64,000 bases of DNA from assembly GCF_001717955.1 (NCBI RefSeq), contig NZ_CP014168.1, positions 3,195,501 to 3,259,500 of the forward strand, written 5' to 3'. Below, piece after piece: positions 33,855 to 62,585 of the stretch (its first letter is position 1; each line of letters starts with the position of its first letter). A program made the position numbers and the translations under genes. The DNA is from Sphingomonas panacis. GTDB lineage: Bacteria > Pseudomonadota > Alphaproteobacteria > Sphingomonadales > Sphingomonadaceae. The notes beneath the pieces were generated by a model. That model saw nothing but the letters and a program-made list of their open reading frames with translations. It was not told where the DNA came from and ran no database searches.

Positions 33855-34173
33855 TGGTGCGGGCGGGGGGACTTGAACCCCCAAGGGCCTCGCGGCCCGA
33901 CGGATTTTCGTACCCGCTACGGCTTTCGCCGCCGCTCACCCGCAGGGCAAGCGTTTGTGGTCTGGACTATCCCTTCACCATGCCCCGCTCGCAGGAGCGG
34001 GGTGCAGGTGCTGCCCGTCTAGTCTCTACACCTTCCCGCCGGGATGGGCGGGCTTGGCTCGGGATCGCCATTTTACAGGGTTCCCCGAATTTGAGCAGTT
34101 CTACTTCGCGGGTTTCCCCGTGAGCACTCAAGTCGTCTAAGTCCGGTGCGTCTACCGATTTCGCCACGCCCGC
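33855..34173 (-). tRNA. tRNA-Leu(UAA) interrupted by a group I intron
   Basis: Exon 1 is 34139-34173 (35 nt, GCGGGCGTGGCGAAATCGG... to C32-U33-U34) and exon 2 is 33855-33908 (A35-A36 onward, with encoded CCA). Joined, they give a class II tRNA of 89 nt. The acceptor stem GCGGGCG/CGCCCGC is perfect, the D arm is GGCGAAATCGGTAGACGC, the anticodon loop CUUAAAA (anticodon UAA), the variable arm GGGCC-GCGA-GGCCC and the T arm GGGGG-TTCAAGT-CCCCC. Four of five anticodon-stem pairs hold; 27-43 is C/U. It is flanked by the GH130 gene on the opposite strand and ihfB upstream on the same strand. Confidence 0.92.
33909..34138 (-). ncRNA. group I self-splicing intron in tRNA-Leu(UAA)
   Basis: 230 nt without an ORF. 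The signature elements are present in order on the minus strand: P (AATTCGGGGAACCC, 34078-34091), Q (AATGGCGATCCCGAGCCAAG, 34053-34072), R (AGAGACTAGACGGG, 34014-34027) and S (AAGGGATAGTCCAGACC, 33959-33975). The 5' exon ends ACUU and can pair with GAGU at intron nt 10-13, giving the U.G splice-site pair; the intron ends in G (33909). The site, between U34 and A35, equals that of cyanobacterial and plastid tRNA-Leu(UAA) introns, and the size is similar (IC3-like). Splicing itself is inferred. Confidence 0.9.
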
Positions 34174-34233: not shown

Positions 34234-34512
34234 TCAGACGTTGAGGCGCAGGCGCATTTCCTTGCCGGGCTTGAAATAGGGGACTCGCTTCGCGGTGACA
34301 TCGACCAGCTCGCCGGTGCGCGGATTGCGACCGGTGCGGGCGTCGCGCGCGCGGGTGGAGAAAGCGCCGAAGCCACGCAACTCGACTCGTCCGCCGGCTG
34401 CCAAACGCTTTGAAATTTCATCGAAAAAGGTCGCGACGATCGCTTCGATATCGCGCGGCGCCAGATCCGGATTCTGTTCGGCCAGCATCTGGACCAGTTC
34501 CGATCGGATCAT
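34234..34512 (-). CDS. ihfB: integration host factor subunit beta
   Basis: A 92-residue HU/IHF-family DNA-bending protein. [26 protein letters not shown] forms the dimerisation helices, and [28 protein letters not shown] carries the family signature and the beta arm with the Pro that intercalates in DNA, followed by [11 protein letters not shown]. The beta-subunit assignment rests on this N terminus and on the position next to rpsA, its usual neighbour. The ATG at 34512 is preferred; the ORF continues upstream (MAGAYGA) without family similarity. It is preceded by a terminator-like hairpin of rpsA. Confidence 0.93.
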
Positions 34513-34666
34513 TGCGCCGTAAGCTCCCGCCAAAATACGTCTACGATCTCACCACAATCTCACAGGATAGAGATCGGGGGATTTAAATAGACTTAGATCA
34601 ATGAGGAGCGGGTGTAAACGGAATTATGGCCGAAAGGGCCATTGTGGTGCAAGCCGGAAAACGAAG

Positions 34667-34705: not shown

Positions 34706-36427
34706 TCAGCGCTTCTCGTTGCGCGCCTTGAGCGCCTCGCCGAGAATGTCGCCAAGCGATGCGCCCGAGTCGGACGAACCGTACTGCGCCACGGCCTGCT
34801 TCTCTTCGGAGATCTGCATCGCCTTGACCGAGAAGGTCGGCTTCTTCGAACGATCGAAGCCGGTCACCATCGCGTCGAACTTCTGGCCGACCTGGAAACG
34901 CTCCGGACGCTGTTCGTCGCGGTCGCGGCCAAGATCGGTGCGCTTGATGAAGCCGGTCGCGCCATCGTCGCCGACCTGAACTTCGAGGCCCGCGTCGCGG
35001 ACTTCGAGAACGGTGACGGTGACGACCGCGTTCTTGTTGAGGCCCGAGCCGCCGCCGCCTGCGGCGACTGCGCCACCGGCTGCCGGAGCACCACGCTCAA
35101 GCTGCTTCATGCCGAGCGAAATACGCTCCTTCTCGGCGTCGATGTCGAGCACGACAGCCTGAACGACCTCACCCTTGCGATGCAGGTTGAGCGCGTCCTC
35201 GCCCGACACGCCCCAGGCGATGTCCGACATGTGGACCATGCCGTCGACGTCGTTGTCGAGACCGATGAACAGACCGAATTCGGTCGCGTTCTTGACTTCA
35301 CCCTCAACGGTCGAGCCGATCGGATGCGCTTCGAGGAACGCCTCCCACGGATTGGCCTGGGCCTGCTTGAGGCCGAGCGAGATGCGGCGCTTGTCGGGAT
35401 CGACCTCGAGCACGACGACATCGACTTCCTGCGAGGTCGAGACGATCTTGCCGGGGTGGACGTTCTTCTTGGTCCACGACATTTCCGAAACGTGGACGAG
35501 GCCCTCGATGCCGGCTTCCAGCTCGACGAACGCACCATATTCGGTGATGTTCGTGACGCGGCCGGTGAGCTTCGCGCCGACCGGATACTTGGCCGATGCA
35601 CCATCCCACGGATCGCTCTCGAGCTGCTTCATGCCGAGCGAGATGCGCTGCGTGTCCTTGTTGATGCGGATGATCTGAACCTTGACGGTATCGCCAATGT
35701 TGAGAACTTCCGAAGGATGACCGACGCGCTTGTAGCTGAGATCGGTGACGTGCAGCAGGCCATCGATGCCGCCGAGATCGACGAACGCACCGTAATCGGT
35801 GATGTTCTTGACGACGCCGTCGATGATCTGACCCTCGGCGAGGCTCAGGATCAGGCCCGAACGCTGCTCGGCGCGGGTCTCTTCGAGGATCGCGCGACGC
35901 GACACGACGATGTTGCCGCGCTTGCGGTCCATCTTGAGGATCTGGAAGGGCTGGGGAATGTCCATCAGCGGCGTGACGTCACGCACCGGACGGATATCGA
36001 CCTGCGAGCCGGGCAGGAATGCCACGGCGCCGTTGAGGTCGACCGTGAAGCCGCCTTTGACGCGGCCGAAGATGACGCCCTCGACGCGCGCGGTCTTGGC
36101 GAATTCGGTTTCGAGCGTGTCCCATGCGGCTTCGCGGCGGGCGCGGTCGCGCGACAGCATCGCTTCGCCGTGGACGTTCTCGACGCGATCGACATAGACT
36201 TCGACTTCGTCGCCAACCTTGAGATCGGCCTTCTGGCCAGGGGCTGCGAATTCGCGCAGCGGCACGCGGCCTTCGGACTTGAGGCCCACGTCGATCACGG
36301 CGAGATCATTCTCGATGCCGGTGACGGTGCCCTTGACGACGCGGCCTTCGAAGCTGTCGGCGCCGCCGAGCGTCAGTTCAAGAAGAGCTGCGAAATCGTC
36401 GCGGGTGGGGGATGCCATAGTGGCCAT
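34706..36427 (-). CDS. rpsA: 30S ribosomal protein S1
   Basis: A 573-residue ribosomal protein S1 with six S1 (OB-fold) domains, needed for mRNA binding at translation start. Typical segments are GTVTGIENDLAVIDVGLKSEG in domain 1, GGFTVDLNGAVAFLPGSQ in domain 2, KNITDYGAFVDLGGIDGLLH in domain 3, TEYGAFVELEAGIEGLVHVSEMSW in domain 4 and LFIGLDNDVDGMVHMSDIAW in domain 5. The ATG at 36427 is 9 nt after AGGAA; ATG 36418 is an alternative. It lies in the conserved order cmk-rpsA-ihfB. S1 usually represses its own mRNA; no specific leader structure is called here. Confidence 0.96.
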   Translation of the reverse strand: MATMASPTRDDFAALLELTLGGADSFEGRVVKGTVTGIENDLAVIDVGLKSEGRVPLREFAAPGQKADLKVGDEVEVYVDRVENVHGEAMLSRDRARREAAWDTLETEFAKTARVEGVIFGRVKGGFTVDLNGAVAFLPGSQVDIRPVRDVTPLMDIPQPFQILKMDRKRGNIVVSRRAILEETRAEQRSGLILSLAEGQIIDGVVKNITDYGAFVDLGGIDGLLHVTDLSYKRVGHPSEVLNIGDTVKVQIIRINKDTQRISLGMKQLESDPWDGASAKYPVGAKLTGRVTNITEYGAFVELEAGIEGLVHVSEMSWTKKNVHPGKIVSTSQEVDVVVLEVDPDKRRISLGLKQAQANPWEAFLEAHPIGSTVEGEVKNATEFGLFIGLDNDVDGMVHMSDIAWGVSGEDALNLHRKGEVVQAVVLDIDAEKERISLGMKQLERGAPAAGGAVAAGGGGSGLNKNAVVTVTVLEVRDAGLEVQVGDDGATGFIKRTDLGRDRDEQRPERFQVGQKFDAMVTGFDRSKKPTFSVKAMQISEEKQAVAQYGSSDSGASLGDILGEALKARNEKR

Positions 36428-54596: not shown

Positions 54597-54681
54597 TGAT
54601 CGCCCCCAACCTTCGTATCGGTATTTCCGGCGCGCTCGCATGAGCTAGATCGGACCCAGGATCTTCCGAGGAGTTATCGTG

Positions 54682-55875
54682 ATGTCGACCAGAGCGTCCG
54701 TGGATGCGCAAAAACCGCCCGCGAAGCCGCTGACCTATGGCGTCACGCTGGCGATGGCGGTGGCGACGGGGATCGGCGTCGCCAACATCTATTACAACCA
54801 GCCGATGCTCGGCATCATCGAGCGCGACTTCCCCGGCACCGCGGCGGGGATGATCCCGACCGCGACCCAACTGGGCTATGCCGCCGGGCTGTTCCTGCTC
54901 GTGCCGCTGGGCGATCTGGTCGAACGCAAGCGGCTGATCCTGATCCAGTTCGGCGTGCTCGCGCTGGCGCTGGTCGCGGCGGCGGCGGCGCCCACGGTCG
55001 GTCTCGTCATCCTCGCCTCGCTGCTGGTCGGCGCGGCGGCGACGGTCGCGCAACAGATCGTGCCCTTCGCCGCGCATCTTTCCGCGCCCGAACGGCGTGG
55101 TGCGACGGTCGGCGTGGTGATGTCGGGGCTACTGTGCGGCATTCTGCTCAGCCGCACCTTGGCCGGCTTCGTCGCGACGCATTCGGGATGGCGGGCGATG
55201 TTCTGGCTCGGCGTGCCGATGGCGGTCGCCGCCGCTGCCCTGATGGCGCTGCGCCTGCCGCGCAGCCATCCCGATAGCGGTCTGCGTTATGGCGCGTTGT
55301 TGCACTCGCTTGTCGATCTGTGGCGTGAGTTCGGCGCGCTGCGGCTGGCGGCGGTGACGCAATCCTTGCTGTTCGCGGCGTTCAGCGCGTTCTGGACGAT
55401 CCTCGCGCTGCGCTTGCAGGAGCCGCGCTTCGCGCTGGGCGCCGAGATCGCCGGGCTGTTCGGGGTCGTCGGCGCGGTCGGGATTCTGGCCGCGCCGATC
55501 GCCGGCCGCATCGCCGACCGGCGCGGGCCGCATCAGGTGATCGCGCTCGGCGCTGTGCTGACGCTGGCGTCATGGGTGGTGTTCGGCCTGTGGACGTCGA
55601 TCGCGGGGCTGGTCGCGGGTGTCATCCTGCTCGATTTCGCGGTGCAGAGCGCGCTCGTCTCCAACCAGCACATCGTCTACGCGCTGCGGCCCGAGGCACG
55701 GTCGCGGCTCAACACCATCTTCATGGGCGCAATGTTTCTTGGCGGCGCGGTGGGTTCTGCCGGTGCGACGATCGCGTGGAACGCCGACGGCTGGAGCGCG
55801 GTGGTGCTGCTCGGCGGTGGCTTCGCGCTGGTCGCGGCCGCATTACAACTCGTCAGCCTGCGCGGGAGGGCCTGA
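54682..55875 (+). CDS. MFS transporter
   Basis: A 397-residue 12-TM MFS exporter or permease. [21 protein letters not shown] in TM1 and [14 protein letters not shown] after TM2, with [19 protein letters not shown] in TM5, resemble the YgaY/drug-export MFS group. The ATG at 54682 has GAGGAG 8 nt upstream. It ends 3 bp before the FAD monooxygenase gene, which implies an operon; an enzyme that modifies a compound and a pump that exports it is one possible link. The AraC pseudogene lies upstream on the other strand. Confidence 0.83.
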
Positions 55876-61343: not shown

Positions 61344-62585
61344 ATGCCGAACGGGATCGATACGCTGACCCGACCGAACGAACCCGTTGCGACGTTCGCG
61401 GCGCTGTCGGTGCCCAATTTCCGCAGCTTCGTGACTGGCCAGGGCGTCAGCCTCGTCGGCTCGTGGACCGAAACTGTAGCGCAGGCGATCCTCGTCCTGC
61501 ACCTGACCAATTCCGCGCGGGCAGTGGGATTCGCCACCGCCGCCCGTTACTTACCAGTGCTGTTGCTGACGCCCTATGCGGGGCTGCTGGTCGATCGGAT
61601 GAGCAAGCGCCGCATCCTGATCCTCACCGCGTCATCGCTCGCGCTGCTGTCGCTCATCCAGGCGGCGCTGGTGTTGACCGGCTTGATGCGGATGGAGATC
61701 GTCTATGCGGTCGCGCTGGTGTTCGGATGCCTGTCCGCGCTCGACAATCCCGCGCGGCAGGCGTTCATCCCGGAGATGGTCGGCACGCGGCTGATCCGCA
61801 ATGCGGTGACGATCAACAGCACGATGGTCAATGTCGGGCGCGCGGTCGGTCCGCTGGTCGCGGCGCTGTTGATCGAGACGATCGGGATCGGCTGGTGTTT
61901 CCTTGTCAACGCGGGCAGCTTCGCCGCGGTGCTGGTCGCGCTCGCGCTGATGCACCCGGCGGCGCTCTTCCCGGTCAAGCGGGTGGCGGCCGCGCGCGGG
62001 CAGCTTGTGCAGGGTTTCCGCTATGCGCTGACGGTGCCCGAGATCATCGTGCCGGTGATGATGATGGCGCTGATCGGCACGTTCACCTACGAGTTCGAGG
62101 TCAGTCTGCCGATCTTCGCGAAGATGACGCTGGCGGGCGGCCCGGCTGCGTATAGCTGGCTGCTGGGGGCGTTCGGGGCGGGGTCGGTCGTCGGCGGGAT
62201 ATATTGTATGCTGCGCCCCGAAACCGGACTGCCACGGCTGATACGCGCATCGCTGCTCTATGCCGCCGGCATGGCTGCGGTCGCCTGCTCACCGTCGCAA
62301 GCGGTTGCGGTGCCGTTGCTGTTCATCGTCGGCTTGGCAAGCATCACCTTCATCACCACCGGCAATTCGACGATCCAACTCGCTTCGGCGCCCGAGTTTC
62401 GCGGGCGGGTCACGGCCTTGTGGTCGACCGCGTTCGTTGGCTCGACGCCGATCGGCGCATCGATCATCGGGCTGATCGACGCGGCAAACCCACGATGGGG
62501 ACTGGCGGCCGGCGCAGTCGCGTGCGCAGTTGCGGCCCTGCTCGGCATCCGGGCAGCGCCTTCATCGCGCGTCACCCATCACTGA
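61344..62585 (+). CDS. MFS transporter (EntS-like exporter)
   Basis: A 413-residue MFS protein of the EntS/MFS_3 group. NFRSFVTGQGVSLVGSWTETVAQAILVL covers TM1 and its approach, PYAGLLVDRMSKRRILI is the TM2-3 loop motif, and SALDNPARQAFIPEMVG with RNAVTINSTMVNVGRAVGP is typical. Relatives export siderophores, macrolides or other small molecules. The ATG at 61344 has GGAAGGAG upstream. It is 183 bp from the efflux operon and ends 7 bp into the convergent copC, so it forms its own unit. Confidence 0.87.
   Translation: MPNGIDTLTRPNEPVATFAALSVPNFRSFVTGQGVSLVGSWTETVAQAILVLHLTNSARAVGFATAARYLPVLLLTPYAGLLVDRMSKRRILILTASSLALLSLIQAALVLTGLMRMEIVYAVALVFGCLSALDNPARQAFIPEMVGTRLIRNAVTINSTMVNVGRAVGPLVAALLIETIGIGWCFLVNAGSFAAVLVALALMHPAALFPVKRVAAARGQLVQGFRYALTVPEIIVPVMMMALIGTFTYEFEVSLPIFAKMTLAGGPAAYSWLLGAFGAGSVVGGIYCMLRPETGLPRLIRASLLYAAGMAAVACSPSQAVAVPLLFIVGLASITFITTGNSTIQLASAPEFRGRVTALWSTAFVGSTPIGASIIGLIDAANPRWGLAAGAVACAVAALLGIRAAPSSRVTHH

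Follow-up and report, generated by a model that had tools for sequence, protein, structure and literature searches.

The window analyzed here, a 64,000-nucleotide stretch of the Sphingomonas panacis genome, carries at positions 33855-34173 on the minus strand a tRNA-Leu(UAA) gene in which a group I intron of 230 nt follows U34; ihfB-like and rpsA-like genes accompany it. The features of this locus are as follows (window coordinates):

34139-34173, minus strand: 5' exon of tRNA-Leu(UAA), 35 nt, with C32 U33 U34 at its end
33909-34138, minus strand: group I intron, 230 nt, characterized by its RF00028 match, covariation and reading frames
33855-33908, minus strand: 3' exon of tRNA-Leu(UAA), from A35 A36 A37 to CCA, the CCA being encoded
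34126-34129, minus strand: internal guide GAGU, predicted to form P1 with exon ACUU (34139-34142), which places a U.G pair at the 5' splice site
34107-34122, minus strand: P2 hairpin with GAAA loop, both-sided changes in 5 of 6 pairs
34079-34092, minus strand: P element, forming the 5' strand of P4, whose pairs do not vary among 27 homologues
34053-34066, minus strand: Q element (3' strand of P4 and start of P6), pairs invariant
34010-34031, minus strand: R element, comprising the P7 5' strand (34020-34024) and the P3 3' strand; both-sided change in 1 of 6 P3 pairs
33959-33975, minus strand: S element, including the P7 3' strand (33965-33969), assigned from the sequence
33976-34010, minus strand: P8 hairpin, two helices, both-sided changes in 8 of 12 pairs
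33920-33931, minus strand: P9 hairpin with GAAA loop, both-sided change in 1 of 4 pairs
33909, minus strand: terminal G at the 3' splice site of the intron, as read from its letters
34234-34533, minus strand: ihfB-like gene (bacterial DNA-binding protein; PF00216, E = 3.3e-30), conserved neighbour
34706-36427, minus strand: rpsA-like gene with six S1 domains (PF00575, E = 5.1e-94, 6 stretches), conserved neighbour

The two exons lie where the initial annotation had placed them; when joined, they fold into a complete 89-nt tRNA-Leu(UAA) that is recognized by ARAGORN, which calls the unjoined locus "tRNA-???". A second "tRNA-???" call, at window positions 54901-54993, falls within a long frame (54679-55875) and was set aside as a likely false positive. 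The intron contains the P, Q, R, and S elements and the P3-P8 core with the P7 pseudoknot; the 5' exon ends in a U that faces the guide G (ACUU/GAGU), and the intron ends in G, so every element that had originally been listed is present. The terminal G is found in all 200 parsed relatives, a letter that the parser demanded. The longest stop-free stretch within the intron spans 76 codons and, judged by such reading-frame lengths, the intron carries no sign of a homing endonuclease.

The Rfam search that had been proposed as a check returned a group I match over 33909-34138: in the 2 kb searched, RF00028 aligns along its entire length (model positions 1-253 of 253) with a score of 45.4 bits (E = 7.5e-10), and in the whole genome (5.32 Mb) the window intron is the sole match at E <=1 (E = 4.7e-10). 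This score falls short of the curated (gathering) score of 50 for RF00028, and a default scan of the window therefore omits the intron and reports only a tRNA-Ala. Covariation over 27 relatives (21 distinct introns from the genus and 6 near relatives) supports the predicted group I fold. The hand-drawn P1-P9 structure of 58 pairs is paired in 97.5% of the cells over these homologues, a value biased in its favour because the structure was drawn on the window's own sequence; when the partners are slid by 1 to 3 columns, pairing falls to 31-45%. Both-sided changes were seen in 21 of the 58 pairs, against a shuffled mean of 13.0 and with none of 500 shuffles reaching 21, a contrast that is inflated by the relatedness of the rows. 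The double changes back P2, P3, P6a, P8, P9, and the helix preceding P9; P1 is paired in every cell that has letters, with one A to G change, and P4, P5, P6, and P7 are invariant and therefore uninformative for covariation. A minimum-energy fold of the precursor, a type of fold in which pseudoknots are impossible, lacks the full group I core; its stability exceeds that of every one of 100 shuffles (z = -3.4). The size of the intron, the GAAA loops of P2 and P9, and the letters of P7 agree with those of subgroup IC3, suggesting a small, ORF-less, IC3-like group I intron of the tRNA-borne sort.

The presence of such an intron in a sphingomonad had been regarded as surprising, an impression that was not supported by a wider survey, which found introns at U34/A35 to be widespread in Alphaproteobacteria. 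Under strict filters, RF00028 matches 4 of 61 genomes (own genome included), and a scan of the genus with the P7 motif, two mismatches being allowed, detected it in 23 of 295 genomes (again with the own one), each time with no mismatch. All 23 introns of the genus interrupt tRNA-Leu(UAA) at the identical site U34/A35, between complete exons, and are 212-245 nt long; some of them are letter-identical to those of S. canadensis, S. yantingensis, and Sphingomonas sp. NFR15, in line with the sphingomonad host that had been proposed. In the family, the P7 motif (one mismatch allowed) is found in 27 of 249 genomes and 15 of 96 genera; besides the window's locus, 25 of 26 family loci are Leu(UAA), and ihfB adjoins 20 of the 26. 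The one exception is L460, from a Sphingomonadaceae genome, where the related intron interrupts a tRNA gene that reads as Lys. Sampled evenly, the class gave motif matches in 47 of 385 genomes, compared with 5 genomes for a reversed control motif, and its introns (L080-L129) reside, besides Leu(UAA), in tRNA-Arg(CCU), Thr(GGU), Lys(CUU), Lys(UUU), and Leu(CAA), as assigned by reading among the matches listed. A scan for Leu(UAA)-type introns with named hosts yielded at least 118 stretches, and the 115 core-parsed among those listed come from Alphaproteobacteria (63), cyanobacteria (26), Betaproteobacteria (9), Acidobacteria (9), Gammaproteobacteria (2), and unplaced proteobacteria (6). The window intron is thus ordinary for its clade, not exceptional, and is filed here as a further member of a kind already known; what surprises is how common such introns are and how easily they are missed. 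As a separate observation, the 5' exon carries R at -6 and G at -5 in all 145 parsed bacterial Leu(UAA) introns, whereas CCGACTT occurs in some intronless Sphingomonas genes, which possibly reflects a target preference.

A new finding is that in Sphingomonas, where the tRNA gene shares a locus with rpsA and ihfB, the intron is tied to one of two tRNA body types. Both rpsA and ihfB adjoin the tRNA at 20 of the 23 intron-bearing loci of the genus and at 45 of the 53 intronless ones, and the neighbouring genes are alike with and without the intron. A T stem reading GGGGG or GAGGG is found in all 23 intron-bearing genes and in 2 of the 53 intronless ones; the other 51 have a different T stem. The length of the variable arm was also tried as a marker of body type and was abandoned in favour of the T stem, as it misplaced 7 of the 23 intron-bearing genes. 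The intronless set, which consists of 13 of 30 pattern loci and 40 further fetched loci, is not a random draw, and its pattern favours the stem CGGACTT and was applied among the matches listed. In an exon tree of 55 rows, from which 21 of the 53 intronless rows are absent, 25 genes (23 with the intron and 2 without) stand apart from the other 30 with a support of 99. The pattern GTAGACGCNNCGGACTTAAAATCCG also picks up tRNA-Leu(CAA), so its tally of 217 of 295 genomes does not equal the count of intact UAA genes; among the 23 intron-bearing genomes, 17 have no match to GTAGACGCNNCGGACTTAAAATCCG and 3 have a CAA-type match, and in G210, G282, and G298, each with one match beyond the matches listed, an additional intact gene is possible. 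The link between intron and body holds for the genus, not generally: the T stems of intron-bearing Leu genes of the family (n = 25) read GGGGG in 15, GAGGG in 4, GCGGG in 3, and GTGGG in 3 cases, and all three GCGGG genes adjoin ihfB and rpsA.

On a host tree built from rpsA and ihfB (65 rows), the intron must have been gained or lost at least 7 times, and supported branches force 6 of these changes. The host topology is rejected by the intron core (AU test, p = 0.0004) and by the full intron (p = 0.001), and the intron topology is likewise rejected by the host data, in tests on 17-20 rows and 171-250 columns, under a model that takes no account of base pairing. The core-only repeat was made because the full-intron tree separates the near-identical introns L060 and L061, a sign of alignment noise. 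Taken together, the association with body type and the conflict between intron and host trees indicate that the intron probably moves with its tRNA gene; a kinship-aware test of intron against tRNA body, with 6 independent pairs of which 5 agree, 0 disagree, and 1 is tied, gives p = 0.0625, which is not significant. The simplest reading is whole-gene replacement, intron included: the intron would be gained and lost mainly with its host tRNA at the locus beside rpsA and ihfB, although in perhaps two cases it alone was lost.

Purely vertical descent in Sphingomonas, accompanied by repeated losses of the intron alone, would account for a single locus that occurs both with and without the intron and for introns common to related species. 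The two intronless tRNA-Leu(UAA) genes with an intron-type body (L381 and L412) also fit it; they are the sole candidates in the sample that differ by the intron alone and may be losses of precisely this kind. The T stem, however, differs in 51 of 53 intronless genes, and the intron and host topologies conflict, so that vertical descent appears rather unlikely as a general account. Independent homing, in which the intron enters tRNA-Leu(UAA) genes already in place by reverse splicing or through a trans-acting endonuclease, predicts that the resident tRNA body stays unchanged except for flanking conversion, whereas in the genus the bodies differ, and the window intron has no long frame; even with one site occupied in many lineages, and with kin introns in tRNA-Arg(CCU), Thr(GGU), and Lys genes that suggest past movement from gene to gene, homing seems improbable here. 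In the evolutionary part of the proposal, which as a whole is the less sure one, the intron would belong to a lineage of tRNA-Leu(UAA) introns that is old in proteobacteria and has been retained in a minority of Sphingomonas. With one locus, two tRNA bodies, and an intron tied to one of them, the choice between an ancestral intron and repeated transfer becomes testable within a single genus.

A second intact tRNA-Leu(UAA) gene, named in the initial annotation as evidence that would count against it, is absent from the 44 intact tRNA genes of the genome (RF00005), whose four intact leucine tRNAs have the anticodons CAG, CAA, UAG, and GAG (ARAGORN). BLAST with the joined exons against the genome returned both exons, next tRNA-Leu(UAG) (71%, full-length), and then short pieces. 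The UUA codon is rare but used (the 34 long frames examined in the window have 15,387 codons, 10 of them UUA), and with no other tRNA-Leu(UAA) available, splicing would be needed to read it; splicing of this precursor is presumably obligatory, and bacteria like S. panacis appear to depend on a ribozyme for their sole UUA-reading tRNA. In the proposed pathway, the precursor would fold, with exon ACUU pairing with the guide GAGU; an external guanosine would attack after U34, at the U.G pair; and the freed 3'-OH of the exon would attack after the terminal G, closing the anticodon loop and yielding the sole tRNA expected to read UUA. These steps are taken by analogy from tested relatives, the present analysis contributing the anatomy, covariation, single copy, and distribution. 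The window intron is almost surely functional, and we infer from the same analogy that it is self-splicing. That it has instead decayed and no longer splices, its tRNA gene being dispensable, might be argued from the low use of UUA, yet the core and splice signals are kept over 27 relatives with compensatory changes and the exons are complete in all 23 genes of the genus, which makes decay very improbable. The overall explanation, namely, a sole tRNA-Leu(UAA) gene with a group I intron after U34 that is removed by splicing and has evolved mainly with its host gene, is given a probability of about 0.88.

The insertion site had been identified as that of cyanobacteria and plastids, and 26 cyanobacterial loci do have their introns at the same position. 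They share with the window intron the U34/A35 site, exon letters ACUU/AAAAUC, a guide of the form GAG-, and the terminal G, and are of similar length (219-312 nt versus 230 nt). However, they form a separate clade, have GAGC as the guide in 24 of 26 cases in place of the window's GAGU, and carry a P7 strand GACTC (26 of 26) instead of GACTA; the P7 letters are GTGCAGAGACTCGACGG in 26 of 26 cyanobacterial introns and GTGTAGAGACTAGACGG in 23 of 23 introns of the genus, a comparison made with scan patterns that admitted such forms only. A quick, unrooted tree was built from 169 Leu(UAA) introns, with 24 of 43 distinct viral introns included; 81 of its 158 inner branches are unresolved. In this tree, all 26 cyanobacterial introns lie beyond a branch of length 1.7 with a support of 100. 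An intron of the cyanobacterial type on a contig labelled Tatlockia (L301, a Legionellaceae MAG, perhaps misbinned) also falls on the cyanobacterial side. The window intron groups with L063, L062, and that of Sphingomonas sp. NFR15 (support 99), the last at 91% identity. Around it is a set of 47 rows (support 95) comprising 22 introns of its own genus, 10 from other Sphingomonadales, 8 from Acidobacteria, and 7 from further Alphaproteobacteria; one intron of the genus, L072, lies outside. The acidobacterial rows within this proteobacterial set point to a transfer between phyla, although the inner forks are weak. A core tree that included introns of other tRNAs had few columns and poor resolution, and its tRNA labels were derived from crude patterns, at least one of them (L115) being wrong. 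Recent acquisition of the window intron from cyanobacteria, the transfer that the initial annotation had raised along with the phylogeny to examine it, has in its favour the shared insertion site and anticodon-loop exon letters of the 26 cyanobacterial loci, which the search pattern required, and is rejected by the long, fully supported branch, by the place of the window intron in a supported set mostly from its own genus and Sphingomonadales, and by the differing P7 letters, so that it is hardly credible.

Precedents outside cyanobacteria exist. Vepritskiy et al. (2002) reportedly described a tRNA-Leu(UAA) intron in a deep-subsurface gammaproteobacterium, which would place it in the same tRNA as the window intron but in another class. 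For the tRNA-Leu(UAA) intron of cyanobacteria, Rudi et al. (2002) reportedly proposed nested evolution with "recombination of the entire tRNA locus," the same idea as the whole-gene replacement suggested here, but in cyanobacteria. The tRNA-Ile(CAU) intron of Azoarcus is a compact tRNA intron of the IC3 kind, to which the window intron may also belong; it resides in a different tRNA. The tRNA-Arg(CCU) intron of Agrobacterium and Bartonella is, like the window intron, a tRNA-borne group I intron of Alphaproteobacteria, but it occupies a different tRNA and a different site; in the poorly resolved core tree, 6 Arg introns from the class sample stand beside a Leu subset without the window intron. 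Crystal structures of the Azoarcus intron are mentioned in a 2014 review (PMC3984707), where the phage introns then seen are all placed in protein genes. According to PMC7717549, the Bartonella tRNA-Arg(CCU) intron BbgpI self-splices in vitro and is spliced in vivo, and Paquin et al. (1999) are cited there for the sporadic distribution of tRNA-Arg(CCU) introns. A list in PMC4033280 assigns bacterial tRNA introns to cyanobacteria and a few alpha- and betaproteobacteria. No report of a window-type intron in Sphingomonas or of phage tRNA-Leu introns was found in the literature searched, older J. Bacteriol. papers being outside it.

Related genes occur on plasmids. A loose search with the window precursor matched 1281 of 72,556 plasmid records, mostly enterobacterial and some from Bradyrhizobium. 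In pCTX-M3 (L438:4000-4300; NC_004464.2, about 61822-62122), both exons of a tRNA-Leu(UAA)-like gene are present around a group I intron of 213 nt (RF00028, 36.8 bits, E = 7.9e-8), and the gene adjoins aac(3)-IId and a gene for an AAA ATPase; in the second plasmid record examined (Acinetobacter), aac(3)-IId is likewise near. The pCTX-M3 tRNA stretch was found in 1280 plasmid records, 1257 of them over at least 80% of its length, and 624 of the 5426 complete genomes of E. coli carry at least 80% of it; no annotated feature underlies the tRNA match in the six E. coli matches listed. A 1.8-kb query that joined the tRNA to the ATPase gene and aac(3)-IId is held over at least 80% by 1230 plasmid records, a threshold that could omit much of the tRNA (of the 8 matches listed, 4 are complete and the rest reach at most 78%). 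Within our own set, the introns nearest to that of pCTX-M3 are alphaproteobacterial (Reyranella, 86.7%; Methylocapsa, 86.4%), which hints at an alphaproteobacterial source for the plasmid segment.

Phages provide a second such setting. A scan of IMG/VR with the P7 motif yielded at least 120 stretches (L130-L249), and among the 120 matches listed, 55 have tRNA-Leu(UAA)-type exons around an intron at the U34/A35 site (such as L133, L140, and L152, the last on a 153-kb contig that encodes a tail fibre protein). Other matches listed appear to sit in further phage tRNAs; in L154, L168, L179, and L187, the intron interrupts phage tRNAs at ACTT/AAAATC (UAA) and the variable region is short, unlike that of a normal tRNA-Leu. 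Tentatively, and at odds that we put somewhat below even, the intron-bearing tRNA-Leu(UAA) gene may be a mobile unit: in Sphingomonas, intron and tRNA would be exchanged together for an intronless tRNA gene with another body at the fixed rpsA-ihfB site, and the unit would cross classes by way of phage tRNA arrays and of plasmids, where it apparently neighbours aac(3)-IId in over a thousand records. Against annotated phage records, a phage precursor query gave 49 matches, none over 80%; of the 30 listed, 21 consist of two pieces with a coverage of 22-23%, as expected of exons without an intron (for example, the 84-nt tRNA-Leu of S-TIM5), and three uncultured huge-phage records among them match over 60-65%. 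The window precursor itself has six partial matches in the annotated phage records.
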